DNA from: Muricoccus pecuniae
GTDB taxonomy: Bacteria; Pseudomonadota; Alphaproteobacteria; Acetobacterales; Acetobacteraceae
Reading direction: 5' to 3'
Length of the DNA: 64,000 nt
Assembly: GCF_014199205.1 (NCBI RefSeq)
Contig: NZ_JACIJD010000008.1
Span: 62,001-126,000, forward strand
The position numbers and the translations under genes are program-made. The notes under the pieces are model-generated. The model worked only from the letters and a program-made list of their open reading frames with translations. It was not told the DNA's origin and did no database searches. This document shows, in pieces, positions 23,337-46,479 of the stretch (position 1 is the stretch's first letter; each line of letters begins with the position of its first letter).

Positions 23337-24602
23337 TCAGGCCGCCCGGGCGGCCCGCCGCGGCGCCGGGCGGTAGATGTCCCGAAGGGTGGAGATGAAC
23401 TCCTCGCGCCCGATCACGTCCCGCAAGCTGGCTGAGAGGCGAGCATGGGTCTCCGGCACGGCCCCTTCCAGCATCGCGCGGGTGAGGTCGGGCGCGGAGC
23501 CGGCGCGGAAGTGCAGGCCGTCCACCCCGTCCTGCACCTTCTCGGCCATGCCGCCGATTCCGGAGACGAGCAGCGGCGTTCCCGCGCGCCGGGCCTCCTG
23601 GATGACCACGGGCGAGTTCTCCCACCAGACGGAGGGCATCACCACCCAGCCCACCGAGCCCATGAGGTCCAGCACGTCCGCGGCGTCGTAGCGGCCGGCG
23701 AAGGTGATCCGGTCCGTCGCCGCGGCGATGGGGCGCTCCAGCTGGGGGAAGAAGCGCAGCGCCTCGGCCTCCGTCGCACCGTAGATCGTCAGCCCGAGGC
23801 CGGCATCCTCGGCCAGCGCCGCCGCGAAGGCGGGGATGAGCACGTCGAGGCCCTTGAACTCCGTTGGCTGGCCGAAGAAGGCGAAGCGCCCGGACAGGCG
23901 CTCGCTGTCCCGCCGCCTGCGCGGGAGGGCGAGGAGGTCGTCCCCGAGATAGTTCTCCAGCACCGTCCCCGTATCGGGCGAGAGGCCCCAGGCGCGGTAG
24001 CGCTCGGCGATGAAGTGGCTGGGATAGAGGTGGTGGTCGAAGCGGCGGAGCCCGGCCATCATCAGCGCCTTGCGCAGCCGGAGCCGCTCAAGGGTCCCGT
24101 CCGGGAAGCAGGTGAGGCAGCGCTGCGCCGTCTCCTTCCTGCACAGCTCGCGGGAGCGGGTGCGGACCATCTGGCCGTGATGGCTGCAGATGGCCAGCAT
24201 CTCGTGGAGGGTGACCACCATCCGCGCATCCGGCCGCGCCTCCGCCAGCTCGGCCACGAGGTCGAGCCCGACGCGCCAGTAGTGGTGGAAGTGATAGACC
24301 TCCGAGCCTAGCCCCGCGAGTAGGCGCACCAGGGCACGCCGCTCCTCCGGGTTGCGCCACCACAGGCGGTCCTCCTCCATGCCGCCCACGCCGTAGAGGT
24401 ACTCGGCCTCCCCGTAGCGGGCCACCGCCTCCCCCCGGTCGGAGGGCGACTGGCCGCCCGGAAGCTCGACGGCGCTGACGAAGCGCGCGTCCCAGCCCTC
24501 CCCCGCCAGGGTCTGGAACTGGCGGTAGGCCGCCGTCTCCCCCCCGCCCTTCGAGAAGTCCGGATGCGCGTGGGCGATGATGCAGACGGAAGGGTTCCTC
24601 AT
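23337..24602 (-). CDS. Family 4 glycosyltransferase
   Basis: A 421-residue GT-B enzyme. The N-terminal donor loop region KGGGETAAYRQFQTLA, the inter-domain segment LENYLGDD, the second-domain opening FAFFGQPTEFKGLDVLIPAF and the nucleotide-sugar E-x7-E motif in ENSPVVIQEA are visible. It contains CSHHGQMVRTRSRELCRKETAQRCLTC, a Cys/His-rich loop seen in a GT4 subgroup. It transfers a sugar from an NDP-sugar during assembly of a surface glycan. The ATG overlaps the upstream stop as ATGA, so it is coupled to the unknown-function gene before it. It lies at the left end of the glycan island. Confidence 0.85.
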   Translation of the reverse strand: MRNPSVCIIAHAHPDFSKGGGETAAYRQFQTLAGEGWDARFVSAVELPGGQSPSDRGEAVARYGEAEYLYGVGGMEEDRLWWRNPEERRALVRLLAGLGSEVYHFHHYWRVGLDLVAELAEARPDARMVVTLHEMLAICSHHGQMVRTRSRELCRKETAQRCLTCFPDGTLERLRLRKALMMAGLRRFDHHLYPSHFIAERYRAWGLSPDTGTVLENYLGDDLLALPRRRRDSERLSGRFAFFGQPTEFKGLDVLIPAFAAALAEDAGLGLTIYGATEAEALRFFPQLERPIAAATDRITFAGRYDAADVLDLMGSVGWVVMPSVWWENSPVVIQEARRAGTPLLVSGIGGMAEKVQDGVDGLHFRAGSAPDLTRAMLEGAVPETHARLSASLRDVIGREEFISTLRDIYRPAPRRAARAA

Positions 24603-26083
24603 CGCGCCACGCCCCTCACCGGCACCATTTCCCACAATTCGCGAAGATGCTCGGCCGCGACCTCCCCGAGCGCGTCGGACCGCCCGGCCGGTACCGTGAG
24701 CGCCCCCGCCTCCGCCCCGGCCATCAGGGCCACCACGCGGCGCAGCGTGCTCTCCATCCCGCCCGTCCCGGCCATCCCGTGCAGCGCGTCCAGCTCGGCC
24801 AGTCGGTCGGCGGGGAGCGCTCTCGCGGCCAGCCGCCCCGCATCCCCCTCGATCGCGGCGTCGATGAGCGCGGCCGTGTCGATCGCGGCGACCGGTCCCG
24901 GCCCGCGGGCGGCCGAGGCGAGGGCCTCCTCCGCATCGGCCTCGACCGACACCTCCACCCGGCCCCGGCGCATCAGCGCCGCCCCGGCCTTCCCGGCGGC
25001 GGCGCCGCTCAGCACGACGCGCCCGAAGCGAGCCTCGATCACCGGCGCGAGAAGGGTCAGGACGCGCCCGGCGAAGTCGTCATCGAGGTCGAAGAACAGG
25101 GCCGTCCCGCCGGGCTGGGAGGGAACGCCGGCGAGGGACAGGGCGGAGAGCCGGCCCCGCAGCGCCTCGCTCCGCTCGGCCAGCACCCCGCGCATCCAGC
25201 CCTGCAGCGCGGCCGCGTCGGGTCCCGCCGCCCCGCCGCCCGCGAGCGAGAGCGCGTCGAGGAAGTCGGGCAGCGCGGCCATCGCGGGTTCCGCGCGGAA
25301 CCACCAGCCCTGCCCGCCGCGCCGGACCTGCACCACCAGCTCGACCGAGGCATCGGGCGGGACCTCCGCCCGGCCGGACAGGGCGAAGCCGCCGGAGAGC
25401 GGCGCGTGCCGTTCCTCAGGGAGCGGGCGCATCTCCTCCCTTCCCGGCCACCTCACGAGAAGGCAGGCGGCGGTCTGCACCCTCTCCCCGGCCTCGGGCT
25501 GGGAGAGGCGGCCGGAGACGGCCAGCTCGCCAGTCGGGAGCAGCACGGCCGAGACCCGCTGGAAATCCAGGAACCACTCCGCCCCGCCCGCCAGCCGCGG
25601 CAGGCGGTCGAGCCACCCGCCGAAGATGCCGAGCGAGCCTTCCTCGGCCGCAAGGGTCCGGAGGCGCTGTGGGGCCAGGGCCGAGGCGTGCAGGAGGTTG
25701 AAGTTCGCGCCCCATTCCCGGTTGTGGGTCGCCGCTCGCACGTCGGAGGGAAGGTCGTAGGCGAGGAGGTCGATCGCGACCTCCCTGGCCGTCTCCGCCG
25801 GGCCCGCGCCCAACACCAGCAACCGTCCGCGGCCGCGGGGCGGAAGGTCGTGGATCAGGCTGAAGCCCGCCACCGCCATTCCCTCGGGGCAGTCGATGTC
25901 CTGCCTGGGATGGAGGTCCAGCAGGAGGGTCTCGACCGGCCCTCCTGAGGCCTGCTCCACCCTGATCCGGAGCGCAGCGCCCGCGGGATAGCGTACCCAG
26001 CCGAAAAAGGCTCCCTGCCCGGGCGTCACCTCGCCCGCGCAGTCCAGCCCGGCCTGGAGCCCCTGTCCGAACTCGAAGTACAT
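24599..26083 (-). CDS. Unknown protein of the glycan island
   Basis: A 494-residue protein I cannot assign. Residues 1-110 look like beta strands (GAFFGWVRYPAGAALRIRVE, then VAIDLLAYDLP), residues 110-270 contain THNREWGANFNLLHASAL and more beta-rich sequence, and the last 200 residues are Ala/Leu/Glu-rich helix. There is no signal peptide or membrane segment. It is co-translated with a GT4 gene (ATGA overlap) and divergent from the tandem GT4 gene across a promoter region with a 14-bp dyad. A role as a partner, scaffold or acceptor-recognition factor for the glycosyltransferases is possible; the sequence alone does not show it. Confidence 0.65.
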   Translation of the reverse strand: MYFEFGQGLQAGLDCAGEVTPGQGAFFGWVRYPAGAALRIRVEQASGGPVETLLLDLHPRQDIDCPEGMAVAGFSLIHDLPPRGRGRLLVLGAGPAETAREVAIDLLAYDLPSDVRAATHNREWGANFNLLHASALAPQRLRTLAAEEGSLGIFGGWLDRLPRLAGGAEWFLDFQRVSAVLLPTGELAVSGRLSQPEAGERVQTAACLLVRWPGREEMRPLPEERHAPLSGGFALSGRAEVPPDASVELVVQVRRGGQGWWFRAEPAMAALPDFLDALSLAGGGAAGPDAAALQGWMRGVLAERSEALRGRLSALSLAGVPSQPGGTALFFDLDDDFAGRVLTLLAPVIEARFGRVVLSGAAAGKAGAALMRRGRVEVSVEADAEEALASAARGPGPVAAIDTAALIDAAIEGDAGRLAARALPADRLAELDALHGMAGTGGMESTLRRVVALMAGAEAGALTVPAGRSDALGEVAAEHLRELWEMVPVRGVAR

Positions 26084-26100
26084 TCAGCCGCCGCTACTGT

Positions 26101-26114
26101 TCACTTGCATGTGA
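26101..26114. promoter_or_regulatory. 14-bp imperfect palindrome in divergent promoter region
   Basis: TCACTTGCATGTGA reads as TCAC-W-TGCA-W-GTGA, palindromic at 12 of 14 positions. It sits in the unusually AT-rich part of the 174-nt gap between two divergent glycan-island genes (starts 26083 and 26258). A small CACCC-TTC-GGGTG hairpin follows at 26119-26131. It is a good operator candidate for coordinating both arms; binding is not proven. Confidence 0.4.
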
Positions 26115-26257
26115 TTAACACCCTTCGGGTGCCCGGGTGCAAGCGCGACGACGCACGCGGCGGTTGCGGTCTTGACCGCCCGCCCCCCGCCTCCGGTATC
26201 CTGGGCGCCTACCGGGAGCCTCCCCGGCCGGAATGCCCGGGACCGATCCCTGAACCG

Positions 26258-28606
26258 ATGCGCTGCCTCGTTATCTCGCCGACGCCGACCCATCCCCAGG
26301 ATGCCGGCAACCGACAGCGCATCCACGGCCTCGTCTCGGCCCTGCGCGGCTTCGGGCACCGCGTGGAATTCGCCTTCATCCGGCGCGAGGCCGTCGAGGA
26401 GGAGGCGATCGAGGCCATGCGCGCCGCCTGGGACGCGCTGCACCTCATCCCCTACGACCGGAGGGCGGAGCGGCCCGGCCTCGGCGAGACCTTCGCGCTG
26501 GACGACTGGTTCCCGCCCGAGGTGGAGGCCGCCGTCGCGGAGATCGCCGCCTCCGCCCCCTACGACCTCGTCCTCGTCGAGTACGTCTTCCTCAGCCGCG
26601 CGCTGGACCTCTTCCCCCCCGGCACGCTCCGGGTGCTCGACACGCACGACGTCTTCGCCGACCGCCATCGCCGGCTGCAGGCGCTCGGCCTGCCCGTCGG
26701 CTTCTTCCACACCACGCCCGAGGAGGAGGCGCGCGGCCTTGGCCGGGCCGACCTCGTCCTCGCCATCCAGGACGACGAGCGGCAGCTCTTCGAGGAGGTC
26801 ACGGAGGCCCCGGTCGTGACCCTGGGCTTCATGCCGGAGGTGGCCCCGCTCGACCGCAGGGCCCGGGACGGGCTGCAGATCGGCTATCTCGGCAGCGGCA
26901 ATCCCCTGAACGGCCACGCCCTCACGCGCTTCCTGGAGGCGGTGGAGCCGGAGAGCCTGGAGGCCACGGTGCAGGTGGCCGGCGGCGCCTCGCGCTACGC
27001 CGAACCCGCCCGACCCGGCCTCCTCCCGGTCGGGGCGGTGGAGCGGCCGGCCGACTTCCTCGCCGGGCTCGACCTCGTGGTGAACCCGCATGAGGGCGGC
27101 ACGGGGCTGAAGATCAAGACCGTCGAGGCCCTCGCCCACGGGCTGCCAGTGATCGGCACGGCGGAGGCCTTCCTCGGCCTCGGCGCCCGCGCGCCCTTCC
27201 ACGCCGCGGCCGATGCCGTGGCCACGGCGGGCTTCGTGCGCCGCTGGGCCCGCGATCCCGGGTTCCGCATCGAGGTCGCGCGGGAGAGCGCGGCCCTGGC
27301 GCGGCGCTATGCGCGCGAGGTGCGCCGGCAGATCGCCCCCTTCCGCTCCCGCGCGGCGCTCTCGGCCCTCGTCTCCCGGCCGCGCGCCCTGCTCGTCACC
27401 GACATCCCCTTCTGGCGCGAGAGCCTGGGGAACCAGGCCCGCATCGCCGCCATGCTGCGCGTCCTGCGCGGCGAGATGGACGTGGACACCCTGTTCCTCG
27501 GCCGGCTGGAGCCGGAGGACATCGGCAGGGCGTCCCGCGTCCTCGGCCGTCGCGGGCGGCTGCTCTCCTCCCCCGCCGACGCGGCCGGCCGCCGCGCCGG
27601 GCCCGTGCCGCCCCATGCGCGCCTCACCGGCTTCGAGCGCGGGCAGTTCGACGCCGGCCACTTCGCCGCGCTGGAGGCCGTGCTGGAGGAGCGCGGGCAC
27701 CAGCTCCTCATCCTGGAATACATCCGCCTCTCCTATCTCCGGCACGCCCGCCCCACGCCGCCGCTGCGCGTGCTGGACACCCATGACGTGATGTCGCTGC
27801 GCACCCGCAACTTCGAGCATTTCGGCCGCGAGCACTTCATCCGGCTGAGCGTGCTGGAGGAGCTGGGCATCATGAGCGGCTTCGAGGCGGTCCTCGCCAT
27901 CCAGGAATCCGAGCAGGCGCTGCTCGACGGCGCCCTTCCCGGCCGCTCCATCCTCCTGCCGCACACGGTGGCCGAGCTGCCGGCGCCCCGCATCGCGCGG
28001 AAGGTCCGGCGCATCGCCTTCATCGGGGGGGACAGCCCGATGAACCGGGACGGGCTGCGCTGGTTCATCGACCAGGTCTGGCCGGCCGTCTCCGATCTCG
28101 GGGCGGAGCTGCACGTGGCCGGGCGGGTCTGCGACGCGCTGGCCGGCTCCGCCGTGCCGGGGCTGATCCTCCACGGCGAGGTGGATGACACCGCCGATTT
28201 CCTCGACACCGCCGACATCGGCATTAACCCCGTCTTCTACGGCGGCGGGCTGAAGATCAAGACGGTGGAGTATCTCTGCCGCGGCCTGCCCTCGGTGCTG
28301 ACGGAAGAGGGCGCCTTCGGCATGCATGGGGGCGAGGGATCGGCCTATCTCGTCGCGCGCTCCCGCGCGGAGTTCGTGGCCCATCTGCGCGGCCTCATCC
28401 GCGACCCGCAGCGCCGCCAGATCCTCGGCGAAGGCGCTTTCCGCTTCGGCCGCGCCCGCTATGCCCCGCCCGCGTCGCGCCCGGCCTGCCGCACCCTCGC
28501 CGCCCTCGCGCTCACCTTCCACGCCCCCTCCGTCACGCGGGAGGGCGAGGCCGGCGGGATGCCGGCCCTCCCCGCCCCGACCAGCCCCGAGGCGCGCGCG
28601 GCCTGA
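26258..28606 (+). CDS. Tandem double GT4 glycosyltransferase
   Basis: A 782-residue protein made of two homologous GT-B glycosyltransferase halves. The same motifs recur about 380 residues apart: RVLDTHDV at 125-132 and 504-511, AIQDDE/AIQESE at 169-174 and 548-553, and GLKIKTVE at 283-290 and 664-671, each followed by a GLP turn. The two N-terminal regions also align (GNRQRIHGL and GNQARIAAM). The halves are far from identical, so the duplication is old. The arrangement suggests two sequential sugar transfers by one polypeptide, or one catalytic and one regulatory half. ATG 26258 is the first start that begins the fold directly (MRCLVISPTP). The next gene starts 29 nt later. Confidence 0.83.
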   Translation: MRCLVISPTPTHPQDAGNRQRIHGLVSALRGFGHRVEFAFIRREAVEEEAIEAMRAAWDALHLIPYDRRAERPGLGETFALDDWFPPEVEAAVAEIAASAPYDLVLVEYVFLSRALDLFPPGTLRVLDTHDVFADRHRRLQALGLPVGFFHTTPEEEARGLGRADLVLAIQDDERQLFEEVTEAPVVTLGFMPEVAPLDRRARDGLQIGYLGSGNPLNGHALTRFLEAVEPESLEATVQVAGGASRYAEPARPGLLPVGAVERPADFLAGLDLVVNPHEGGTGLKIKTVEALAHGLPVIGTAEAFLGLGARAPFHAAADAVATAGFVRRWARDPGFRIEVARESAALARRYAREVRRQIAPFRSRAALSALVSRPRALLVTDIPFWRESLGNQARIAAMLRVLRGEMDVDTLFLGRLEPEDIGRASRVLGRRGRLLSSPADAAGRRAGPVPPHARLTGFERGQFDAGHFAALEAVLEERGHQLLILEYIRLSYLRHARPTPPLRVLDTHDVMSLRTRNFEHFGREHFIRLSVLEELGIMSGFEAVLAIQESEQALLDGALPGRSILLPHTVAELPAPRIARKVRRIAFIGGDSPMNRDGLRWFIDQVWPAVSDLGAELHVAGRVCDALAGSAVPGLILHGEVDDTADFLDTADIGINPVFYGGGLKIKTVEYLCRGLPSVLTEEGAFGMHGGEGSAYLVARSRAEFVAHLRGLIRDPQRRQILGEGAFRFGRARYAPPASRPACRTLAALALTFHAPSVTREGEAGGMPALPAPTSPEARAA

Positions 28607-28635
28607 GCCGCGACGCCCAGGAGAACCTCTCCCCG

Positions 28636-29379
28636 ATGCCGATTGAGACCCCGAGCGACGGACTGGACCTGCTCGCCATGCGCGAGGCCGAGACCGCCCT
28701 CACCGACGCCGCGGCCCGGCTGCGCGCGGAGGCGATCCTGGCACGCCTCGCCCCGTCGCTCGCCCCGCTGCCGCCTGCCCTGCGGCAGGCCATGGAGCAG
28801 CTGGTGCAGGAACTGGGAGCCGTTTCCGCCGCCGCCGAGGCGGCCCGGCAGGGCGCGATGGAGAACCGGCGGGACCGGGGGGACTGGCTCCAGATCGACC
28901 CGCTTCGGCACATCCCGGAGGACCGGTCCGCGCCGCCCCCGCCGCGTCCCGGGGCCGTTGAGATCCACGCGGCCGATCCTGGCTTCATCGGCTATGGCTG
29001 GCACTCTGCCGAGGGACATGGGCGGGAGAGTTGGCGCTGGAGTGGTCTCGCGCCCGCCGCCTCCGTCGTGCTGCCCGATCTCGGCTCCGGGCGGGTGGAG
29101 CTGGAGTTCGACCTGCAGTTGCCCTTCCGCCAGCCCTTGAACGAGGGGGCCGTCACCATCCTCGCCAATGGCGAGCCGCTGGAGCTCGCCATGGCCCTGC
29201 GCAACGGCCATCGCGGCAGCTTCTCCGCCATCTGGGAAGGGGCCGAGGCTCCCGGCGCGAGCCTCGGGCTGGTCCTGCTCGGGCCGCTGGTGACGGACCC
29301 CACGGGGCGCGACACGCGCAAGCTCGGCATCGGCTTCCGCAGCCTCTCCGCCCGGCCGGCGGGGCGGCGCCGGGGCTGA
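28636..29379 (+). CDS. Unknown protein with a sugar-enzyme-associated beta domain
   Basis: A 247-residue protein. Residues 10-75 are predicted helix (Ala/Leu/Glu-rich, possible coiled coil); residues 105-240 are a beta-rich domain opening GYGWHSAEGHGRESWRW and continuing with alternating hydrophobic strands. A similar layout (GW followed by EG, then a Gly turn and repeated L-x-L strands) appears in the last 150 residues of the TPR-GT4 protein at 46480. No enzyme motif, signal peptide or membrane segment is seen. It lies 29 nt after the double-GT4 gene and is probably co-transcribed. A carbohydrate-recognition or GT-partner role is inference. Confidence 0.62.
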   Translation: MPIETPSDGLDLLAMREAETALTDAAARLRAEAILARLAPSLAPLPPALRQAMEQLVQELGAVSAAAEAARQGAMENRRDRGDWLQIDPLRHIPEDRSAPPPPRPGAVEIHAADPGFIGYGWHSAEGHGRESWRWSGLAPAASVVLPDLGSGRVELEFDLQLPFRQPLNEGAVTILANGEPLELAMALRNGHRGSFSAIWEGAEAPGASLGLVLLGPLVTDPTGRDTRKLGIGFRSLSARPAGRRRG

Positions 29380-29397
29380 GCCGGCAAGGCCAGGGCG

Positions 29398-29420
29398 GCG
29401 GGGCTGCCCCCTAGCCCCGC
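29398..29420. terminator. Bidirectional terminator-like hairpin between convergent genes
   Basis: A perfect 8-bp stem (29398-29405 with 29413-29420, GCGGGGCT/AGCCCCGC) closes a 7-nt loop between two converging genes. The stem includes part of the minus-strand stop codon. No flanking T-run is seen, so confidence is moderate. Confidence 0.4.
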
Positions 29421-30562
29421 GCGATCGCGACCTGGAAGTCGGTCGACAGCTCGTTGAAGCCCCAGAAATTGCGCAGCGAGGTCCGGAGCGCGTTGGGCGG
29501 GCGGCGGAAGCGCTCGCCATCGGGGCGCGTCACGGGGGTCAACGGCGCGAGGGCGCGGCGCCAGAAGTCCGTGTCTCCCCAGCTCTCGACGATGCTGAGA
29601 TGCTGGCCCGGCACCGCATCCGCCCGGCGGTCCGGGATATCGAAGGGCGACTGGTGGAGGACGCGCGCCTCCTGCCCGAAGAAGCGGGCCTCCATCAGGG
29701 CGGAGGAGCTGACGCCCACCACCTGCCGGATCTCCTCCGAGGCCATCAGCGCGTAGATATTCTCATAGGTCACGTGCAGGGCGCGCAGCGGGAACCCCGC
29801 GGCGATCGCGCCGAAGTCGCTGTTCGCGTAGGGATGCGGCTTGAAGGTGATGCCGCCCTCCCCGACCGCCGCGCGCAGCTCCGGCGCGAAGTCCGAGAGG
29901 TCCACCACGCGCCCGTCGCGGACGAGCGAGCGATCGATCCGGGTCTGCCCCACCAGCAGCGTCTCGCCGGGCACCTGCAGACGCGGGCGGAACTTGAGGG
30001 CGGAGGCCGCGAGCAGCCCCGCCGGGCCGAGGAAGGCGCTGTCCTCCGCGTGGTCGGGCAGCAGGGCCTCGAAGACGGCGGCGTCGTTCGTCTGCACGGC
30101 GAAGAAGACGTCGTCGAGGAAGCGGATGGGGTGGATGCCGAAATCGACGAAGGGAATGCCCAGGAGGCTGAGGATCCGCTTCATCGATTCCGCCAGTTCG
30201 AAGCCGATGACGACGGAGCCGCCATAGGCCCGCTCCATCTCCGTCATCACCCCCTCCGGAGCGAAGCCGGCGTCGAAGATGCGGGCCCAGCCGCGCCAGC
30301 TCTTCTCGACTTCCCAGAACTCGTAAAGGCGCGGCGTATCGATGCCCCGGCCCCAAGCGACCACCTCGACCGGGAGGCGCGACGCCGCGGCGACCTGGCC
30401 GCGGACGAGGCGATGGAACCAGAGGATGTTCTCGGTCTGGGAGGGGCGGAAGCCCGCATCGGCGGGCCGCAGCACGTCCCCGGTGAAGACGATGCGGCCC
30501 GGGCGCGCCTCCGTGCCCGAGAGCGCTGCCCCTGAGAGCCCTGCTCCTGAGAGCTTCGACAT
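29411..30562 (-). CDS. GT-B-like protein of unknown function, capsule-enzyme-like
   Basis: A 383-residue protein. FKPHPYANSDFG (near residue 245) resembles the K-P-H-P motif of GT-B capsule enzymes such as KpsC/KpsS-type and glycerophosphotransferase-type transferases, and VVGVSSSALMEARFFGQEARVL fits the nucleotide-binding half of that fold. I cannot name the reaction. The N-terminus is odd: residues 4-16 are a degenerate LSGAGLSGAALSG repeat, and the ATG at 30562 has no Shine-Dalgarno, so translation may start later. It ends a three-gene minus-strand set after galE and a GT4 gene, lying 5 nt after the GT4 stop. Confidence 0.65.
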   Translation of the reverse strand: MSKLSGAGLSGAALSGTEARPGRIVFTGDVLRPADAGFRPSQTENILWFHRLVRGQVAAASRLPVEVVAWGRGIDTPRLYEFWEVEKSWRGWARIFDAGFAPEGVMTEMERAYGGSVVIGFELAESMKRILSLLGIPFVDFGIHPIRFLDDVFFAVQTNDAAVFEALLPDHAEDSAFLGPAGLLAASALKFRPRLQVPGETLLVGQTRIDRSLVRDGRVVDLSDFAPELRAAVGEGGITFKPHPYANSDFGAIAAGFPLRALHVTYENIYALMASEEIRQVVGVSSSALMEARFFGQEARVLHQSPFDIPDRRADAVPGQHLSIVESWGDTDFWRRALAPLTPVTRPDGERFRRPPNALRTSLRNFWGFNELSTDFQVAIARG

Positions 30563-30567
30563 GGGAG

Positions 30568-31638
30568 CTAGCCCGCCACCCCGGCCGCGACCGGCACATG
30601 CGGCTGGCCGCGGAGGAAGCCGAGGAAGGCATCGGCCGCACGCGCCAGCGCCGGCAGCCCGTGGCTCGCCTCGACATGGCGGCGCGCGCGGCGGCCCATA
30701 ACCCGGCGCAGCCCTTCCTCGCGCAGCAGCAGCTCGACCGCGGGGCGGAGGGAGTCCGGCCCGACCATGAAGCCGTGCTGCCCCTCCACGAAGCCGCCAT
30801 AGACCGTGTCGCGGTAGACGATCACGGGGAGCCCGCAGGCCATGGCCTCCACCACCGCGCGCGGCAGGCCGTCCATGCGGGAGGGATGCACCATGATCCG
30901 GGAGCGCCTGAGGAGGGAGATCACCTCGGGCTGCGGCAGGCGCCCGGCGAGTGTCAGCCGGGAGGGATCGGCCACCGCGGCCTTCACCTCCGGCCGCGGC
31001 ACCCCGCCGCCGACGAGCACCACGCGCCAGGAATCCGTGAAGGGAACGACCTCCTCCTGGTTCTTCCGCTTCTCGTGCAGGCCGCCGACATTGATGATGT
31101 CGTGCAGCGGCTCCACCGGCCGCGGGGCCGGGCGCGTGGCGTCCAGGTCCACGTATTTCGGCATGACGAAGGCGCGCCCCTCCGCCGCGAAGCGGGGGAA
31201 GTGGCGGCGAAGCTGCTCGGGATACTCGCCGAAGACGAAATCGGCGGCGTCCAGCACGGGGTCGGTCACGCTGCCGCCGACGACGAAGCCGAAGCGCGGG
31301 GCGCCGCCGGGCATGTCCGCCAGCCCCTCGCGTAGGGCGGCGTTCACCCGGTAGCTCAGCCCCTTCATCAGGATTGCGTCCGGCGCGAAGTCCCTGACGG
31401 CCCCGACGAGCGCCGCCGAGACCTGCCGGTGCGGGATCTCGCCGGGATTGTCGGAGGGGGCGAAGGTGACGGGCACCTCCCCCTCCAGGTAGCTCTCGCG
31501 CTCCACCTCCGGCCCGGGATGGAGGCGGAAGACGGCGATCTCCGCCCCCGCCCGGGCGAGGAAGCGCATGAAGTGCATGTCGCGCATCGCGCCCGCCATG
31601 GACCGGTCCGCGTGGCTCATGAGGAGCGCGAGGCGCAT
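30568..31638 (-). CDS. Family 4 glycosyltransferase
   Basis: A 356-residue GT-B enzyme. The second domain shows NVGGLHEKRKNQEEVV, then VVLVGGGVPRPE, LAGRLPQPEVISLLRRSR and the donor-binding SRMDGLPRAVVEAMACGLPVI with the E-x7-E arrangement. It has no membrane helix and would act at the cytosolic face. It begins 2 nt after galE, so a UDP-galactose-type donor is a reasonable guess for this enzyme, but that is inference from context. ATG 31638 is the only start that gives a complete N-terminal Rossmann-like half. Confidence 0.84.
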   Translation of the reverse strand: MRLALLMSHADRSMAGAMRDMHFMRFLARAGAEIAVFRLHPGPEVERESYLEGEVPVTFAPSDNPGEIPHRQVSAALVGAVRDFAPDAILMKGLSYRVNAALREGLADMPGGAPRFGFVVGGSVTDPVLDAADFVFGEYPEQLRRHFPRFAAEGRAFVMPKYVDLDATRPAPRPVEPLHDIINVGGLHEKRKNQEEVVPFTDSWRVVLVGGGVPRPEVKAAVADPSRLTLAGRLPQPEVISLLRRSRIMVHPSRMDGLPRAVVEAMACGLPVIVYRDTVYGGFVEGQHGFMVGPDSLRPAVELLLREEGLRRVMGRRARRHVEASHGLPALARAADAFLGFLRGQPHVPVAAGVAG

Positions 31639-31640
31639 GG

Positions 31641-32651
31641 TCAGGCAGCCGTCTCCGCTGCCAGGCCGCGGTAGCCCTTCAGGTTGCGCGCCCGCCAGGC
31701 ATAGGCGGTGCCCACGATGTCGTCGAGCGAGCCGAGCTTTGGCTCCCAGCCCGTCTCCCGCCGCAGCTTCGCGTTGGAGGCGACGAGCACCGCCGGGTCG
31801 CCCGCGCGGCGCGGCCCGAGGCTGTAGGGAACCGGCTTGCCCGCCGCGCGCTCCACCGCCGCGATCACCTCCAGCACCGAGGCGCCCGTGCCGCTGCCAA
31901 CATTGTAACGGCAGGAGGGGCCGTCCTTCAGCTTGTCGAGCACGCGCAGATGGGCGTCGGCGAGGTCGGTCACGTGGACGTAGTCGCGGATCGCGGTGCC
32001 ATCGGGCGTGTCGTAATCCGTGCCGAAGACCGTCAGCGGCGGGCCGAGGCCGAGCACGGCGTTCACCGCGTTCGGGATGAGATGCGTCTCGGGGTCGTGG
32101 TCCTCGCCCAGCCGCCCGCCGGGATCGGCGCCGGCCGCGTTGAAGTAGCGCAGGCAGGCGGAGCGGAGCCCGTGCGCGCCGTCGGCCCATTCCAGCCCGC
32201 GCTCGGCCATCAGCTTCGAATCGCCATAGGCCGAGACAGGCTTCATCGCCTCCGTCTCGTCGATGGGGATGCGGTCGGGCAGGCCGAAGAGCGCCGCGGT
32301 GGAGGAGAGGACGAAGCGCATCACCCCCGCGCGCACCGCCGCCTCGGCCAGGCCGAGCGTGTTGCCCACGTTCTCCGTGATATAGCGCAGCGGCTCGCGC
32401 ATGCTCTCGCCCACGAGGGAGAGGGCGGCGAAGTGGAGGATGCCGTCGAAGCGCCAGCCGGCCAGCACCTCCTCGACCGTCTTGCGGTTGCCCAGCTCCC
32501 CCACGACCAGCTCCGCGCCGGGGGGCACCGCGCCGCGATGGCCCTGGCGCAGGCTGTCCAGCACCACCACCTCATCGCCGCGCTCCAGCAGCGCGAGGAC
32601 GATGTGGCTGCCCACATAACCCGCGCCGCCCGTCACCAGGTATCTTGCCAT
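31641..32651 (-). CDS. galE: UDP-glucose 4-epimerase
   Basis: A 336-residue extended short-chain dehydrogenase. It has the N-terminal NAD-binding GGAGYVGSH motif (residues 8-16), the LHFAALSLVGES segment, SSTAALFG, the catalytic YGDSK (Y-x3-K) and LRYFNAAGADP, all typical of GalE. It interconverts UDP-glucose and UDP-galactose. It is the first gene of a minus-strand set with two transferase-like genes and is divergent from another GT4 gene, so it probably supplies UDP-galactose for the glycan built by the island. Confidence 0.92.
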   Translation of the reverse strand: MARYLVTGGAGYVGSHIVLALLERGDEVVVLDSLRQGHRGAVPPGAELVVGELGNRKTVEEVLAGWRFDGILHFAALSLVGESMREPLRYITENVGNTLGLAEAAVRAGVMRFVLSSTAALFGLPDRIPIDETEAMKPVSAYGDSKLMAERGLEWADGAHGLRSACLRYFNAAGADPGGRLGEDHDPETHLIPNAVNAVLGLGPPLTVFGTDYDTPDGTAIRDYVHVTDLADAHLRVLDKLKDGPSCRYNVGSGTGASVLEVIAAVERAAGKPVPYSLGPRRAGDPAVLVASNAKLRRETGWEPKLGSLDDIVGTAYAWRARNLKGYRGLAAETAA

Positions 32652-32801
32652 CCGTCATCCTCGGCCAGGTTCACGCCCGGCCGGCGCGACGGGGGCAGTA
32701 TAGCCCATTTCCGCGCGCCGCCGAAGCCGGTCCCCGCATGACCGTCCACGCCCCCCGCGCGCAAGGGTTGTCCCGATCACCTGTCCGTTGGAAGAAGGCG
32801 C

Positions 32802-33959
32802 ATGGCAAGGACCTTGCGGACGGCGCGCCTGCTCGTCCTCTTTCCAGGGGAGCGGTTCGGCGGGGCCGAGGCCCACACGCTGCGGGTCACCGATGCGGCG
32901 CGAGCCCTGGGGATGGAGGTCACCCTGGCCGCGTCAGGGGCGCTCCACCCCGCCCTGGCCGGCCCGGGCCGGGTGCTGCTGGACCTGCCGCTCGCCTGGC
33001 GCCGGGGCCTGCCCCACACGGCCCGCCGCGCCCAGGCCGAGGCGGCGCGCGCCGCCCTCGACGCCGCCTATCCCGATGTGGTCCTGCTCCCCCTGCCCTG
33101 GCCGGACCAGGCCGGGGGCGCGATGGAGGCGCTGGCGGAGCTGGGCACCCCCACCCTCGTCGTCTGCCATCTCGCGCCGCACGGCGAGGAGCGCCCGCTT
33201 GGGCTGGACGGGGAGGCCCTGCGCGCGGCCTCGGCCATGTGGGCGGACTGGGTGGCCGTCTCCGAGCCCACCGCCGCCCGCGTCTCGCGCTTCCTCGACC
33301 TGCCGCCCGGGCGGGTGGACACGATCCCGAACGGGGTGGATCCGCCCGTGCCAGGGGACCGAGCCGGCCGCCGGGCGGCGCTCCGCGCCCGGCTCGGCCT
33401 CGATGCCGATGCGCCCGTCGCCCTGTTCCTCGGCCGGCTGGACCGGGCGAAGGGCGCCGATCACCTGCCCCTCCTCGCCGAGGCCTTCGCCTGCCGCACC
33501 GGAGGCGTGATCGCCTGCGCCGGCACGGGCAGCCTGGGGGAGGAACTCGCCCGCGCCTCCCCGCCCGGCCATCCGCTCCGGCTGCTCGGCCAGCATCCCA
33601 GGCCGGCGGAGCTGCTGGCCGCCGTGGACGCGCTGGTCATGCCCTCCCGGCTGGAGGGAGCGCCGCTCGCCTTCCTGGAGGCCGCCACCCACGACCTCCC
33701 CGTCGCCGCGAGCCCCGCGGCGCTGGAGGCGCTCGGACCGGCGGCGGGGGATTTCGCGGCCATCGCCGATGCCGAGGATGTCGGTGCCATGGCCGATGCC
33801 CTGGCCGGCTGCCTGGACGCCCACGGCCCCGCGCCGGCGCGGGCGGCGCGGGCCTGGCGCATGGCCACGGCCTGGGACGCGACGGCCATGACCGCGCGCT
33901 ACCTCGCCCGGTTGCGCCGCCTGACCCTTCCACCACTTCACGGAGTCGTGCGCGAGTGA
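32802..33959 (+). CDS. Family 4 glycosyltransferase
   Basis: A 385-residue GT-B enzyme. Motifs in order: FGGAEAHTLRV (donor-proximal glycine loop), VAVSEPTAARVSRFL, the inter-domain IPNGVDPP, LFLGRLDRAKGADHLPLL and SRLEGAPLAFLEAATHDLPV (E-x7-E). It is divergent from galE and is followed 47 nt later by the GT2-GT4 fusion, so it is the first gene of the right-hand arm of the island. Acceptor and donor are unknown. Confidence 0.85.
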   Translation: MARTLRTARLLVLFPGERFGGAEAHTLRVTDAARALGMEVTLAASGALHPALAGPGRVLLDLPLAWRRGLPHTARRAQAEAARAALDAAYPDVVLLPLPWPDQAGGAMEALAELGTPTLVVCHLAPHGEERPLGLDGEALRAASAMWADWVAVSEPTAARVSRFLDLPPGRVDTIPNGVDPPVPGDRAGRRAALRARLGLDADAPVALFLGRLDRAKGADHLPLLAEAFACRTGGVIACAGTGSLGEELARASPPGHPLRLLGQHPRPAELLAAVDALVMPSRLEGAPLAFLEAATHDLPVAASPAALEALGPAAGDFAAIADAEDVGAMADALAGCLDAHGPAPARAARAWRMATAWDATAMTARYLARLRRLTLPPLHGVVRE

Positions 33960-34006
33960 GATAATGGGCCGCGCAGGCGGGGCGGCAAAAGGGGCGCGTG
34001 GACGGC

Positions 34007-36601
34007 ATGGGCTGGCAATCGACGCCGGGCGGAGGCGCAGCGGCACCGGCGGGCGCAACAGCGCCGGCGGGCGCAGGGGCGCCCGAAGTGGCAGTGATCG
34101 TGCCGGCCTGGCAGCAGCCCGCGCTGCTGGCCGAGGCCGTCGAGTCCGTCCTCGCCAGCTGCGGCCGCCGGCGCGTCGCTGCCGTGGTGGTGGATGATGG
34201 CTGCCCGATGGAGGAGACGCGGCGGACGGGGCTGCGCCTCGCCCGTGCCCATCCCGGCAAGGTCCACTTGCTACGCCGCGCCAATGGCGGGCTCTCGGCC
34301 GCGCGCAACACGGGCATCGACTTCGCCCTCCGCGCCTGGCCGGGCTGCCGCTCCCTCTTCTTCCTCGATGCCGACAACCGCCTGGGCCCGCGGCTGATCG
34401 AGCGGGCGGCGGAGTTGCTGGAGGCGTCCGGGCCGGAGACGGGCTGGGTCTATCCCGATTTCGACTTCTTCGGCGTCCCGGAGAGCGCCTCCGCGGCCGG
34501 CGACTACTCCCGCTTCATGCACCTGCTGGAGAATACGAGCGACGCGGGCAGCCTCGTTTCCCGCGCCGTCTTCGAGGCCGGGCTGCGCTTCGACGAGACG
34601 ATGCGGGACGGCTTCGAGGACTGGGATTTCTGGCTCCGCGCCGCCGCCGCGGGCTTCCGGGGCCGGCACCTTCCCATGGGCGGCTTCCGTTACCGCCGGC
34701 GCGCGGGCGGGATGCGACAGGAGGCCGAGCGGCAGAGGCCCGCCATCCTGGCCGGGATGCGCCGCCGCCTCGGGCCGGCGCTCCGCCCGCGCAACCTCCT
34801 GCGGCTGGAGGCGGGGGAGGTGCCGCGCTTCCTCCTGCTCCGCGCGGGATCCTCGGGGGCCGAGCTCGTGGTGGACCCCCTCCGCCCCGCCCTTCCCGCC
34901 CTTCCGCGCGAGGCCGCCCGTCGCCGGCTGGTGGAGGCGAGCCGCCATCCCCAGGCCGTCCATGCGCCGCCCTTCCTCCTCTTCGCCTCCGGCGCGGCGC
35001 TCGATGCCCTCGCGGCGGGGCGGCTGCTGCACAACACGCTCTGGCAGGCCGAGATCCTGCTGCGCGAGGCGGAGGTAGTGTCCGTCACCCTCGCCCCGTC
35101 CGAGGGGGGACGCCTCTCGGTCGAGCGCGGGGAGGGCACGCCGGGCGAGCAGGCGGCGCTCATCCTCTTCCGCAGCCAGCCCTTCGCCGAGGCGGCGGCG
35201 CTCGGCTCCGCCCTCGCCTCCGCGACGCGGCGGGGCGCCACCCTGCGGGTCACCCTTCCCCTGGAAGCCGGAACAGCCATCCCGCCCGCCCTGCCCGAGG
35301 CCGCCGCCGAGTTCGCGGCCCTGGCCGAAGCCTTCGCCACGCGCCATCCCGAGCACGGCGAGTGGCGCGGCGACTGGCGCCGCCCGCGGAGCCGGGCGCA
35401 TCAGGGCTATGGCGAGCTGATCGGGGCCGGGGCGGTGCTGCCCTGGCTCGCACCGGAAAGGGGGCGCGACATCGCCCTCGCCGTCCCCGTCTTCGAGATG
35501 GGCGGGGTGGAGCGCGTGGTGACCAATCTCGCCGCGGTGCTGCGGGAGCGCGGCTGGCGCCCGCATCTCGTCGTCACCGGCGCCGATACCGCCACCCTGC
35601 CGCCCGACGCCCTCGCCGCCTTCGAGACCGTCCAATTCCCGCAGCGCGGGGGGATCGAGGGGAACGACCCCGAGGCCGCGCATCTCGGCGCGCCGCTTCC
35701 AGGCGCGACGTCCCTGCGCGACGCGCTCGGCCAGCTCGCGCCGATGGAGGCGGTGCTCGCCACGCATTCCCAGGGTGTGCACGCCCTGGCGGGGGTGTTG
35801 CGGGGCCTCGGCGTCCTCACCATCGCCGGGCTGCATGTGGTGGAGCGCGATTCCGCCGGAGCGCCCCTGGGCAATCCGCACGCACTCCTCGCCCACGAGG
35901 CGAGCTACGACGCCGTAGCCGTTGTTTCTGAAGGATTACGGGACTGGTGCATCGCCCAGGGCATCCCCGCCTCCAAGGTGCTTCTCGTCCCCAATGGCCC
36001 GGGTCACCCCGCCTTGCCCGGCGCGGCCGAGGCCGCGATGGAGGGCCGGATCGGGCGCGAGGGGCCGCTGCGCGCCCTCTTCCTCGGCCGGCTGGATCCT
36101 CAGAAGGGCCTCACCCGGCTGCGCGACATCGTTGCCCTGACGCCCGGGGTGGAGTGGCGAGCGGCCGGCCGCGCGGTGCTGGACCGCGCGCCCGAACCGA
36201 TCCCGGGCCTGGCCGTCGAGCCGCCCGCCGAGGGCGCGGCGCTGGAAGCCCTGTTCGCCTGGGCGGACGTGCTCGTCCTTCCCTCCCTCTTCGAGGGCTC
36301 GCCGCTCACCATCCCCGAGGCGCAGCGGATGGGCTGCGTCCCCCTCGTCACCCGCACGGGCGCGGTCGCCGAGATGATCGCGGACGGGGTGGACGGATTC
36401 CTCATCCCCGCCCGGCCGAACGGGCGGGACGACCTCCGGGTAGCCTCCGACTTCGCCTCGCGCCTCGCCGCCCTCGCCGCCGACCGCCCGGCCCTGCTCG
36501 CCGCCGCCCGTGCCGCCCATGCCCGCGCCGCCGCCCTGCCCGGCTGGGCGGCGCGGATGGAGCCCCTCCTCGCCCGCCTGGACAAGGTTTCCGCCCCGTG
36601 A
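34007..36601 (+). CDS. GT2-GT4 fusion glycosyltransferase
   Basis: A 864-residue protein with two unrelated glycosyltransferase folds. Residues about 27-250 are a GT2 (GT-A) domain: VIVPAWQQPAL, VVVDDG, ANGGLSAARNTGID and the metal-binding FLDADN. Residues about 488-860 are a GT4 (GT-B) domain: EMGGVERVVTNLA, FLGRLDPQKGL and LFEGSPLTIPEAQRMG. The intervening 220 residues match nothing I know. One chain could add two different sugars in sequence. ATG 34007 is preferred to GTG 33998, since the AGGGG at 33990-33994 is only 3 nt from the GTG; the choice changes three residues. The stop overlaps the next gene as GTGA. Confidence 0.83.
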   Translation: MGWQSTPGGGAAAPAGATAPAGAGAPEVAVIVPAWQQPALLAEAVESVLASCGRRRVAAVVVDDGCPMEETRRTGLRLARAHPGKVHLLRRANGGLSAARNTGIDFALRAWPGCRSLFFLDADNRLGPRLIERAAELLEASGPETGWVYPDFDFFGVPESASAAGDYSRFMHLLENTSDAGSLVSRAVFEAGLRFDETMRDGFEDWDFWLRAAAAGFRGRHLPMGGFRYRRRAGGMRQEAERQRPAILAGMRRRLGPALRPRNLLRLEAGEVPRFLLLRAGSSGAELVVDPLRPALPALPREAARRRLVEASRHPQAVHAPPFLLFASGAALDALAAGRLLHNTLWQAEILLREAEVVSVTLAPSEGGRLSVERGEGTPGEQAALILFRSQPFAEAAALGSALASATRRGATLRVTLPLEAGTAIPPALPEAAAEFAALAEAFATRHPEHGEWRGDWRRPRSRAHQGYGELIGAGAVLPWLAPERGRDIALAVPVFEMGGVERVVTNLAAVLRERGWRPHLVVTGADTATLPPDALAAFETVQFPQRGGIEGNDPEAAHLGAPLPGATSLRDALGQLAPMEAVLATHSQGVHALAGVLRGLGVLTIAGLHVVERDSAGAPLGNPHALLAHEASYDAVAVVSEGLRDWCIAQGIPASKVLLVPNGPGHPALPGAAEAAMEGRIGREGPLRALFLGRLDPQKGLTRLRDIVALTPGVEWRAAGRAVLDRAPEPIPGLAVEPPAEGAALEALFAWADVLVLPSLFEGSPLTIPEAQRMGCVPLVTRTGAVAEMIADGVDGFLIPARPNGRDDLRVASDFASRLAALAADRPALLAAARAAHARAAALPGWAARMEPLLARLDKVSAP

Positions 36602-38910
36602 CCCTGCGCGCCGATCCCGCCCATCTCGCCGCCCTCGCCGGCGGCCGCCCAGCTGTCCTCGTGGCTGAGGGGGTGATGGACCCCTCCCCGCTCGCCGTGC
36701 CGGGGCTGGAGGTCTGGAGCATCGCCGCCCGCGGCGGCGCGCTGCTGCTGCATCCCCAGGGCACGCGCGCGCCGGATCCCGAGACGGCGATCCCGCTGGC
36801 CACGCCGCCGATGGGGGGCCTCGCCCTCATCGCCAGTGACCGCGCGCGGATCGCGCCGGTCGCGCGCTGGTGGGTGGAGGCGGCCGGGCTGCCGGCGCCG
36901 CCCTTCGTGCCGGCCGCGACGGGACAGGCGGCGCTGCCCGGCCTGCTCGCGATCCTCGCCGCGGAGCTGGCGGCGGCCCAGGCACGGGAGAACGAGGCCT
37001 GCCGCGCGCTGGTGGCGGCCCGGCAGGAGATGGAGGAGACGCGGGAGGCCATGGCGGACACGGCCCGCCTCCTCGCCCACCGCCCGCCCGTCGCGCCGCG
37101 GCTCATCCTCTCGGGCGAGGCCGGGGCGGCGACCCTGCCCCATGGGCGCCACGCACTCGGCACGGGGCTCGCGGGGCTGGCCGCCATCGCCGTCCACCTC
37201 GCCGGGGCGGCGGAGGGCGACGGGCTGCTGCGCTTTCGCCTTATCGGCGGGGAGAGCGACCGCGTCCTCGGCGCCTGGTCCGTGCCCGCCGCCGAACTCG
37301 CCCCGGGCTGGCTCACCCTCGAGCTTCCCACGCCGCTCGGTCCCTTCCGCGAGACGGCGGTGCTGGAGGTGCTGGCCGAGGGTGAAGGCCTTCCGCCCCT
37401 CTCGGCCGAGCTTCGCTGGGCCGGGACGGAGGGGGAGCACCCCCTCGCGATCCGTGCCTGGGCCGGCGCCCCGGGCAGCCGCTACCTTGCCCCGGCGCAC
37501 TGGGTGCCGGAGGAGGTCGGGCTCGGCCTGCCCGGCGCCGATGTCCCTCTCGCCCTGCCGGCCCCGGCCTGGGCCGCTGCACGGGTGATCGAGGGGGCGG
37601 TGAGCAGCATCGCCCTGGGCGACGAGCCGCCGCGCCCACTGTTGCGCGCGCCTGCCGGGGAGCGGGCGCTCCTGCTCCTGCCCCTTATCCACGCGCCGGG
37701 CTTCGACCGCCTGCGGATCGCCTTCGCGAACGGAACGGGTGCCGGGGCCTCAGTTGCCACTTGGCTCCGCCCCGCCGATCCAGCGCCCGCCGGAGCGGCG
37801 GATCTCGACGGGCCGGCCGCCGGGGCCGCGGAGAGCGGATGGCGTGCCCTGCCGGAAGAGGGGCTGGAGCTCACCCTGCCCCTCTCCGCCCTGCTGGGTG
37901 GCCGCGCGGCCCTCGCGATCGCCCTGCGGGCGGGAGAGGCGGAAGCCTCCGTCGAGGTCGAGGGCGTGGCCCTCTCGGCCCAGCGCACGGGGGCACTCCC
38001 CGCGCCACAGCGCCCGGCCGCCGCGCCGGAGGAGGCCAGGGAGACGCTCCTCGGCACGCCCCCGCAGCCCGCGGAGGTGCCCGTCGCCGCGGTGCCCGAC
38101 GAGGAGGCGGAAGCGGCCGCCGTGAAGCCTCCGGAGGCCTCGCCCCTCCCCGAGGAAGGGGTGGAGGAGGCCGGGGAGCCGGCCGGGCCCAGTGAAGTAC
38201 CGGCAGCCGGCCCGGATGAGGACGTTGCCGCGGCGCCCGAGGCCGCGCCTTCCCCTATCGTCACCTCGCCCGCCCCTGCGCCGGCGACGCCCCCCCCATC
38301 ATCGCCCGGCCTGGAGGAGTACCGGCCGATCGTGCTCCCCTTGCCCGTCCCGGTGGAGATGCCGGCGGGGCCCGCGCCCTCGGCGGAGCAGCCCGCGCCG
38401 CTGGCCGCCCTGCCCCGCCCGGTGGCGCCCGCGGTCCGCACGGGTCCGATCAACCCCCTGCCCGGGCGAGCCCCCGCGCGCTTCGAGGCCGTCCGGCTCC
38501 ATCAGCACATGCCCGGCGACTCCTATCGCCATCTCGACATGACGGTGGCCAGCCTCGCCAGCGGCCCGATGCGCTGGGCCGCCGTGAGGGTGAAGCTCGT
38601 GAGCAAGGACGGCGAGCCGCGGCTCGAATTCCGCCGCGCGACCGGCTGGCCGCAGGTCTTCCGCGACTGGCTCGGCCGGTCGAGCGACAAGTTCGGGCCC
38701 TTCCTCCGGATCGCCCTGCCGGAGCTGCGCGACTTCCTCGAATCCATCACGGACGAGCGCGACGCCGCGATGATGCAGGCGCTCTTCGCCGTGCTGCCGC
38801 GCGCCGCCGAGGATGCCTGCCGCCAGGCCGGCCTCTCCGTCGCCGACACGGCGGCATGGGTGGAGCGCGCGCGGGAGTTGCAGGAGACCGGAATCCGCGC
38901 CGCCGCATGA
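36598..38910 (+). CDS. Large unknown protein of the glycan island
   Basis: A 770-residue protein without a family I can name. Residues 1-110 look like a small alpha/beta domain, 115-165 a helical segment, and 170-460 a run of beta-rich modules. Residues about 465-615 are a low-complexity Pro/Ala/Glu linker. The compact C-terminal domain (about 620-770) contains HQHMPGDSYRHLDMTVASL and ends in helices. There is no signal peptide or membrane segment. It is coupled to the GT2-GT4 gene by a GTGA overlap (GTG start at 36598). The modular, linker-tethered plan suggests a scaffold or glycan-length or acceptor-recognition protein; that is inference. Confidence 0.68.
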   Translation: MTLRADPAHLAALAGGRPAVLVAEGVMDPSPLAVPGLEVWSIAARGGALLLHPQGTRAPDPETAIPLATPPMGGLALIASDRARIAPVARWWVEAAGLPAPPFVPAATGQAALPGLLAILAAELAAAQARENEACRALVAARQEMEETREAMADTARLLAHRPPVAPRLILSGEAGAATLPHGRHALGTGLAGLAAIAVHLAGAAEGDGLLRFRLIGGESDRVLGAWSVPAAELAPGWLTLELPTPLGPFRETAVLEVLAEGEGLPPLSAELRWAGTEGEHPLAIRAWAGAPGSRYLAPAHWVPEEVGLGLPGADVPLALPAPAWAAARVIEGAVSSIALGDEPPRPLLRAPAGERALLLLPLIHAPGFDRLRIAFANGTGAGASVATWLRPADPAPAGAADLDGPAAGAAESGWRALPEEGLELTLPLSALLGGRAALAIALRAGEAEASVEVEGVALSAQRTGALPAPQRPAAAPEEARETLLGTPPQPAEVPVAAVPDEEAEAAAVKPPEASPLPEEGVEEAGEPAGPSEVPAAGPDEDVAAAPEAAPSPIVTSPAPAPATPPPSSPGLEEYRPIVLPLPVPVEMPAGPAPSAEQPAPLAALPRPVAPAVRTGPINPLPGRAPARFEAVRLHQHMPGDSYRHLDMTVASLASGPMRWAAVRVKLVSKDGEPRLEFRRATGWPQVFRDWLGRSSDKFGPFLRIALPELRDFLESITDERDAAMMQALFAVLPRAAEDACRQAGLSVADTAAWVERARELQETGIRAAA

Positions 38911-46418: not shown

Positions 46419-46479
46419 TTCGCGGCACTCCCCGGTATCCTCTTCCGGCCGGGCCCGGCGCCCGCTACCCATCGCGGTG

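Follow-up and report, generated by a model that had tools for sequence, protein, structure and literature searches.

We have analyzed a 64,000-nucleotide stretch of the Muricoccus pecuniae genome (hereafter the window; C8:62001-126000 in genome G000, an assembly of 4.92 Mb and 92 contigs), in which a glycan-assembly island of ten intact genes, designated A to J, occupies positions 23337-38910. Three of its products, A, I and J, were shown by sequence comparison to be homologues of the proteins at the WgeG, WgaB and WgaA positions of the exopolysaccharide II (EPS II, galactoglucan) cluster of Sinorhizobium meliloti, and a fourth, E, is a homologue of a GT140 transferase of 3-deoxy-D-manno-oct-2-ulosonic acid (Kdo). 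The island is hypothesized, with a probability of roughly 0.6, to be a rearranged EPS II-type locus for an exopolysaccharide that contains galactose (Gal) and Kdo and is exported in trans.

The genes form two divergent sets (A-B/C-D and E-F-G/H-I-J), as the initial annotation of this DNA had described them, with a count of ten in place of its nine. They specify eight glycosyltransferase (GT) domains, GalE and three partner proteins (B, D and J), and Pfam and NCBIfam agree with the GT and GalE assignments:

23337-24602, minus strand: A, GT4, WgeG (ExpE7)-like (Pfam Glyco_trans_1_4/Glyco_transf_4)
24599-26083, minus strand: B, 494-amino-acid (aa) protein without family match, directly upstream of A in all maps made
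26258-28606, plus strand: C, tandem GT4-GT4 (Pfam, two stretches)
28636-29379, plus strand: D, 247-aa protein with no family over cut-off
29411-30562, minus strand: E, GT140 retaining Kdo transferase homologue, stand-alone, 383 aa (PDB 9yfx match)
30568-31638, minus strand: F, GT4 (Pfam)
31641-32651, minus strand: G, UDP-glucose 4-epimerase GalE (NCBIfam TIGR01179, 374.8 bits, cut-off 262.3)
32802-33959, plus strand: H, GT4 that heads H-I-J (Pfam)
33998-36601, plus strand: I, GT2-GT4 fusion, WgaB (ExpA2)-like (Pfam); a start at 34094 was preferred by the codon-usage gene caller
36598-38910, plus strand: J, DUF6212 protein, WgaA (ExpA1)-like (Pfam PF19717)

Homology to the EPS II cluster

J belongs to the Pfam family DUF6212 (PF19717), which it matches with 211.1 bits against a cut-off of 26.4. 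Confinement of this family to the Acetobacteraceae was considered and rejected, as it is also present outside them; it occurs in 7 of 385 genomes of the class, own included, one of them scoring below the cut-off. At each of five DUF6212 loci outside the family of the window (G653, G314, G556 and G729 from one genus, G622 from another family) a homologue of I adjoins, and the cluster includes one or two small repeats-in-toxin (RTX) proteins. These RTX proteins (L158-L162) are almost pure repeats, with a C-terminal stretch that by eye is like that of the S. meliloti WgeA-position protein.

A search of plasmid records with one of those I homologues returned 113 records, 69 of them from Sinorhizobium. 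The site in S. meliloti record CP050512 begins with a GT4, a methyltransferase, a GT2, a calcium-binding protein, HlyD, a type I permease and a MarR regulator, and continues with a GT, a 494-aa hypothetical protein, the I homologue, two pyruvyltransferases and rfb genes, beyond which lie genes for proteins of 234 and 738 aa and another GT4. Two papers (PMC3233446, PMC1403797) describe the EPS II cluster as the wga, wgcA, wggR (MarR), wgd and wge operons, with six GTs (WgaB, WgeB, WgaC, WgcA, WgeD and WgeG), the secreted calcium-binding protein ExpE1 and the transporter ExpD1/D2; in the latter source, expD1 and expD2 mutants are blocked in EPS II and ExpE1 is needed. The CP050512 site fits this cluster, the Wga and Wge letters used here having been assigned by gene order, since the names are absent from the record.

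A and the WgeG-position protein (QND29202) are reciprocal best matches within the EPS II cluster proteins (39% over 425 aa), and the best place for A on the whole CP050512 replicon, chromosomes lying outside that search, is the WgeG-position gene. I and the WgaB-position protein are likewise reciprocal best within the cluster, with 35% over nearly the full length. J was aligned to the WgaA-position protein by hhalign (99.5%, E-value 3.6e-23, 414 columns) with a profile built from four sequences, namely that protein and the DUF6212 proteins of Phyllobacterium, Paracoccus and G556; pairwise BLAST gave 33% over 115 aa only. The island shares with EPS II a WgaB-like GT2-GT4 protein adjoining a WgaA/DUF6212 protein, together with a WgeG-like GT4; the order is I-J in the island and A1-A2 in EPS II.

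Related runs were found on a Phyllobacterium plasmid (RTX, GT2, A-like GT4, GalE, DUF6212, I, pyruvyltransferase), on a Paracoccus versutus plasmid (DUF6212, I, sulfotransferase, pyruvyltransferase) and in P. yeei (DUF6212, I, two other genes, A, pyruvyltransferase). Neither Wzx nor Wzy is annotated in the Phyllobacterium and Paracoccus stretches shown, for which the gene table is incomplete, or in the S. meliloti stretches read, a further likeness to the island.

Gene E and GT140

E had no Pfam match at E ≤ 10 and matched PDB 9yfx (KrkA) with an E-value of 4.9e-24, which refines its earlier label of "GT-B-like" to that of a GT140 Kdo transferase homologue. KrkA is, according to PMC12887879, the founding GT140 retaining Kdo transferase, from the E. 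coli K13 capsule, with E102 as general base and D193 as nucleophile. The KrkA residues E102, R127, Q189, D193 and H227 given there align with E122, R147, Q206, D210 and H243 of E. Each of the five is kept in 23 of 24 homologous loci (own included), namely the 23 that cover the position, and 22 of 23 retain the proline of the HP motif; the check comprised these five positions, N21, K71 and R170 being left out. E thus has the GT140 domain of KrkA with its QXXXD nucleophile motif, general-base Glu, Arg and HP motif, and differs in standing alone without the ribosyltransferase half of KrkA and in being unlinked to kps genes. From this sequence likeness we infer that E uses CMP-Kdo.

Partner proteins

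The initial annotation had counted B, D and J as three unknown proteins without membrane segments. J, given its DUF6212 match, is only partly unknown. As a rough test for membrane segments, a crude hydropathy count gave none for A to H and, at a loose threshold, two for I and three for J. B had no match in Pfam, NCBIfam or the PDB, and D had nothing over cut-off in Pfam or NCBIfam; PDB profile searches gave only two matches for J, neither of them significant (E-values 1.4 and 2), and none for B. Residues 21-109 of B show a weak and doubtful profile match (43%; 28% with a single sequence) to the WgeE-position protein, and no match was found between B and the WgeF- and WgeH-position proteins or a 519-aa protein of P. 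yeei. A common ancestry of B, D and J was rejected, as there was no profile match among the three. A well-kept C-terminal domain of about 140 residues in J lies outside the Pfam DUF6212 match (residues 82-444) and is preceded by a Pro/Ala-rich linker that is long and variable within the genus and short in other genera. A full-text literature search by name found no paper naming DUF6212.

Median best-piece identity in seven relatives, J excluded, was 59% for B and for D, 70-82% for the GTs and 86% for GalE; judged by these values, B and D evolve faster than the island GTs and GalE. The B-A pair recurs in other genera with identities of 28-35% for B and 54-60% for A, and D adjoins E in three other genera, with seven genomes in all (G052, G143, G006, G118 and G189; G012; G244), as well as on plasmid pL11-A of Pseudoroseomonas cervicalis.

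Conservation and distribution

Genes of relatives were called with a codon-usage script, so that starts may be off and lower-GC genes may be missed. A to J are complete and in the same order in five congeners (G022, G251, G252, G256 and G258). G253 and G197 have nine of the genes, F not being found, and in G197 the set is spread over two contigs. At the G253 locus (L047; R. harenae L087), A, C, E and J are seemingly split by frameshifts, through either sequencing error or decay. B is present in 8 of the 15 genomes of the genus, own included. In G250 the interval from a thiolase gene to the acetylation module described below holds only J-, H- and GalE-like genes, and in G254, up to the end of the fetched stretch, it holds only GalE and H.

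The island set is re-sorted in other genera. H-I-J directly follows a peptidase/rluB/rsmD-like block (names that we presume from the sequences) in 12 of 26 named loci, from Belnapia, Roseicella, Siccirubricoccus, Dankookia, Paracraurococcus and Crenalkalicoccus, rsmD being uncalled in the Dankookia locus. Elsewhere the arrangement is C-H-J with B-A-(F) and E-D at other places (G052, G143, G006 and G189), I-J plus D-E/F-A-B (G118), D-E-F-C separate from H-I-J (G012), or C-D-E separate from H-I-J (G244); C stands beside H-J in F. bella and AR75 and beside D-E(-F) in G012 and G244. Nine of the ten island genes occur together on pL11-A, where GalE is not among the listed genes and a pyruvyltransferase is annotated with them. 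Of ten sampled genomes that encode E with at least 45% identity, nine also carry J; in the J sample the figure is 26 of 249, of which 22 exceed the cut-off. These counts are uncorrected for kinship. Co-occurrence of the unknown proteins with these GTs, which had been proposed as a check on the initial annotation, is thus borne out as a fixed order in congeners, and in other genera the same genes are sorted anew. Since the order is kept in congeners and the genes are re-sorted elsewhere, the island is more than a chance grouping, and its genes are inherited as a set.

Some pieces of the island in other genera (L163, L165, L065) stand beside DNA polymerase III alpha, DUF1501/DUF1800, or sulfotransferase and CysNC-like genes, and therefore move independently of any polysaccharide locus seen.

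Export genes

Pfam scans of the ten island proteins and 20 flanking proteins found no Wzx, Wzy, ABC (ATP-binding cassette) exporter or priming enzyme, in agreement with what had been noted initially for the island. In the loci seen, its relatives are not always embedded in a Wzx/Wzy or ABC-exported polysaccharide locus, the circumstance that would have spoken against a distinct system: at 12 of 26 named loci, H-I-J directly follows the rluB-rsmD-like genes. At loci outside the genus, 45 entries were listed for genes of multi-segment membrane proteins no more than 8 kb from an island homologue, many of them one gene met in several genomes. Of these, 10 were scanned, and a standard Wzx/Wzy/KpsM locus in relatives was rejected, as none of the 10 was Wzx, Wzy or KpsM by Pfam; annotation tables were also used for this. 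By family the 10 were two ABC proteins (one SbmA-like, one MsbA-like), two importer permeases, an MFS protein, PepSY, CTP_transf_1, DUF1275 and MurJ, the last over the TIGR01695 cut-off; the tenth, with 11 segments, had no family.

The genome itself has two priming transferases and two Wzy_C proteins on other contigs; on C13, one such pair adjoins a Wzz-like protein that scores below the cut-off. The search for Wzx did not extend to the whole genome. A Kps-type locus on contig C1 (about 198700-221500; L181, L182) encodes Poly_export, a KpsE-family protein (265 bits, cut-off 437.5), an ABC ATPase, a KpsM-like protein (130.6, cut-off 300), KpsC and KpsS (PF05159), together with a 2465-aa polyketide synthase (PKS)-type protein and a BioF-like enzyme (350.9, cut-off 426.45). 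The latter two recall the rhizobial rkp-1 lipid-carrier genes. With the kps locus on C1 and the island on C8, the island GTs do not stand beside kps genes. Borrowing of exporters encoded elsewhere, one of two explanations first offered for the missing export genes, is possible given these loci.

Acetylation module beside the congener islands

In congeners, a module of MBOAT, ALGX, TPR, AlgF-like (below cut-off), ALGX and GDSL genes adjoins the island; Pfam was applied to G251 only, and the other congeners were compared by BLAST. The module is complete in G251, G252, G256 and G258, lacks the second ALGX in G022 and is partial in G253 and G197, and it is still found beside the J-, H- and GalE-like genes of G250 and the GalE and H genes of G254. 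With its MBOAT, two ALGX-type, AlgF-like and GDSL genes it resembles the AlgI/AlgJ/AlgX/AlgF systems for O-acetylation of alginate or cellulose. It is missing from this place in the window, where about 380 bases (22958-23337) separate the nucleoside hydrolase gene from the island (compared with L037-L050 and L079). All 15 genomes of the genus contain BcsB, 10 with two matches and 5 with one; the own BcsB genes lie at C8:23870-25708 (about 36 kb left of the window) and at C14:64731-66560. The module was considered as proof of the island product, an argument weakened by these cellulose synthase genes.

Proposed function and its alternatives

The island is related to the EPS II cluster and probably works like one. 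In the scheme that we favor, I (GT2-GT4), A, F and H (GT4) and C (GT4-GT4) would build a Gal-containing chain in the cytosol, into which E would insert Kdo taken from the CMP-Kdo of lipopolysaccharide (LPS) synthesis; Kdo would then supply the acidity that in EPS II comes from pyruvylation. B, D and J may be partners that hold or select the GTs. The chain would exit through machinery encoded elsewhere, of the Kps type or of the type I-like kind that has been proposed for EPS II; in congeners, the adjacent AlgI/AlgX module, absent from that place in the own genome, would O-acetylate it.

Several findings weigh against this reading. Reciprocal counterparts in the S. meliloti cluster are lacking for C, D, E, F and H, the last of which resembles only the GT4 half of the WgaB-position protein, and a search with the window I at E ≤ 1e-40 gave two S. 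americanum records and none from S. meliloti. The EPS II cluster has the WgeA RTX protein, WgdAB, a MarR regulator, pyruvyltransferase and rml genes, which the island lacks, whereas GT140, GT4-GT4, other GT4s, B and D are additions of the island. RTX (WgeA-like) and WgdAB were absent from the Pfam scans of the island and 20 flanking proteins, a genome-wide WgdAB search not having been made, and rml genes and pyruvyltransferases were absent from the island and the flanks scanned. In Falsiroseomonas tokyonensis, a 361-aa protein without Pfam family and with 11 segments by the crude count (L100:19731-20816) is encoded 7.8 kb from I-J. Because every one of the 15 genus genomes has BcsB, cellulose is a possible substrate of the acetylation module. 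As RTX/WgdAB, rml and pyruvyltransferase genes are missing from the island and the flanks scanned despite the three shared proteins, we do not call the island an EPS II cluster. The homology of A, I and J makes the initial description of an undescribed system too strong.

It is possible, though unlikely, that the island instead determines the serotype of a Kdo-containing K-antigen capsule as a region of its own ("region 2", or rkp-3-like), unlinked to the KpsMTE/KpsCS genes of contig C1 whose products would export the polymer. GT140 is characterized, according to PMC12887879, only in the group 2 capsule enzyme KrkA, and Sinorhizobium K antigens include alpha-Gal/beta-Kdo polymers, according to PMC4881576. 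The own Kps export locus with its PKS-like and BioF-like genes recalls the split rkp regions of Sinorhizobium, and the GT set varies among congeners at one site. Likeness to rkp-1/2/3 would lie in a possible hexose-Kdo chemistry and in assembly genes that stand apart from the lipid-carrier and export locus; the island itself has no export gene. Against a capsule, 26 of 27 genomes have PF05159 genes, whether or not they carry the island, and no island homologue was seen in six Kps loci inspected of eleven fetched. A Kps-linked region 2 had been the leading idea and was lowered after the homology of A, I and J, which points to EPS II.

A completion of the LPS outer core is less probable still, as is that of a different lipid-linked oligosaccharide for which MsbA or a flippase like it would suffice without a dedicated exporter. 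LPS core genes often stand beside housekeeping genes, and H-I-J stands beside housekeeping-like genes in the 12 loci described; Kdo is itself an LPS sugar. An ABC half-exporter (cluster c17) is encoded about 1-4.4 kb from I-J in three Roseicella loci and in those of Dankookia and Paracraurococcus LOR1-02, but on the other strand, and the R. frigidaeris copy, the only one scanned, scored 399.7 against the MsbA cut-off of 602 bits. Cluster c17 is not represented in the Belnapia or Siccirubricoccus loci. Eight GT domains are, moreover, many for a core, and A, I and J are EPS II homologues.

There is also a slender chance that DUF6212-WgaB-WgeG sets in general mark a family of polysaccharide systems that do without Wzx/Wzy: in the cytosol, the chain would be built on, or bound to, a small WgeA-like RTX protein, and it would leave by type I secretion, protein-primed or protein-escorted. 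This would explain the missing Wzx, Wzy and priming genes, the RTX proteins at all five loci outside the family, and the expD1/expD2 block and need for ExpE1 described in PMC1403797. The RTX partner of Roseomonas would then be encoded elsewhere. In the own genome, a small RTX open reading frame (ORF) on C15, the only one read of 56 PF00353 matches, has an end unlike WgeA by eye.

Glycosylation of a type I-secreted protein or of a cytosolic one, the latter being the other explanation offered initially, is very improbable: the absence of export and priming genes and the small RTX proteins in five of five DUF6212 loci fetched outside the family (four from one genus) would suit it, but RTX repeats are too common in those genomes (44-191 PF00353 matches each) for their number to be a signal, the RTX check revealed no such ORF in the window or among the Acetobacteraceae loci it covered, the 20 flanking proteins include no candidate acceptor, the sequence relatives make exopolysaccharide, and flagellin, proposed along with autotransporters as an acceptor, occurs in 15 of 15 genomes of the genus (own included) regardless of the island, the individual loci of relatives not having been searched for either.

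The rearranged EPS II-type reading would tie DUF6212, a Pfam family of unknown function, to EPS II and make wgaA of S. meliloti, a symbiont of alfalfa that is tractable in the laboratory, the place to find that function. EPS II-type sets without annotated Wzx/Wzy span Sinorhizobium, Phyllobacterium, Paracoccus and the Roseomonas group, which lends more weight to the problem of their priming, polymerization and export. A GT140 Kdo transferase homologue outside any kps locus bears on the presence of Kdo in other exopolysaccharides.

Other features of the window

Scans for tRNA genes and Rfam families gave no match in the window. The GC content of the island (0.72-0.78 in 2-kb steps) lies inside the window range of 0.65-0.78. 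The left flank scanned contains nucleoside hydrolase, GDPD and branched-chain uptake genes, and the right flank thiolase, MFS and sugar ABC importer genes. Beyond the sugar ABC importer, 7 kb to the right of the island, a TPR-GT4 fusion (46282-48798) is kept at that place in R. rosea, P. indoligenes, R. harenae, P. baculiformis and R. populi, and its relatives, with 26-44% identity, occur in the Kps loci of the own genome, G022, G139, G012 and G256.

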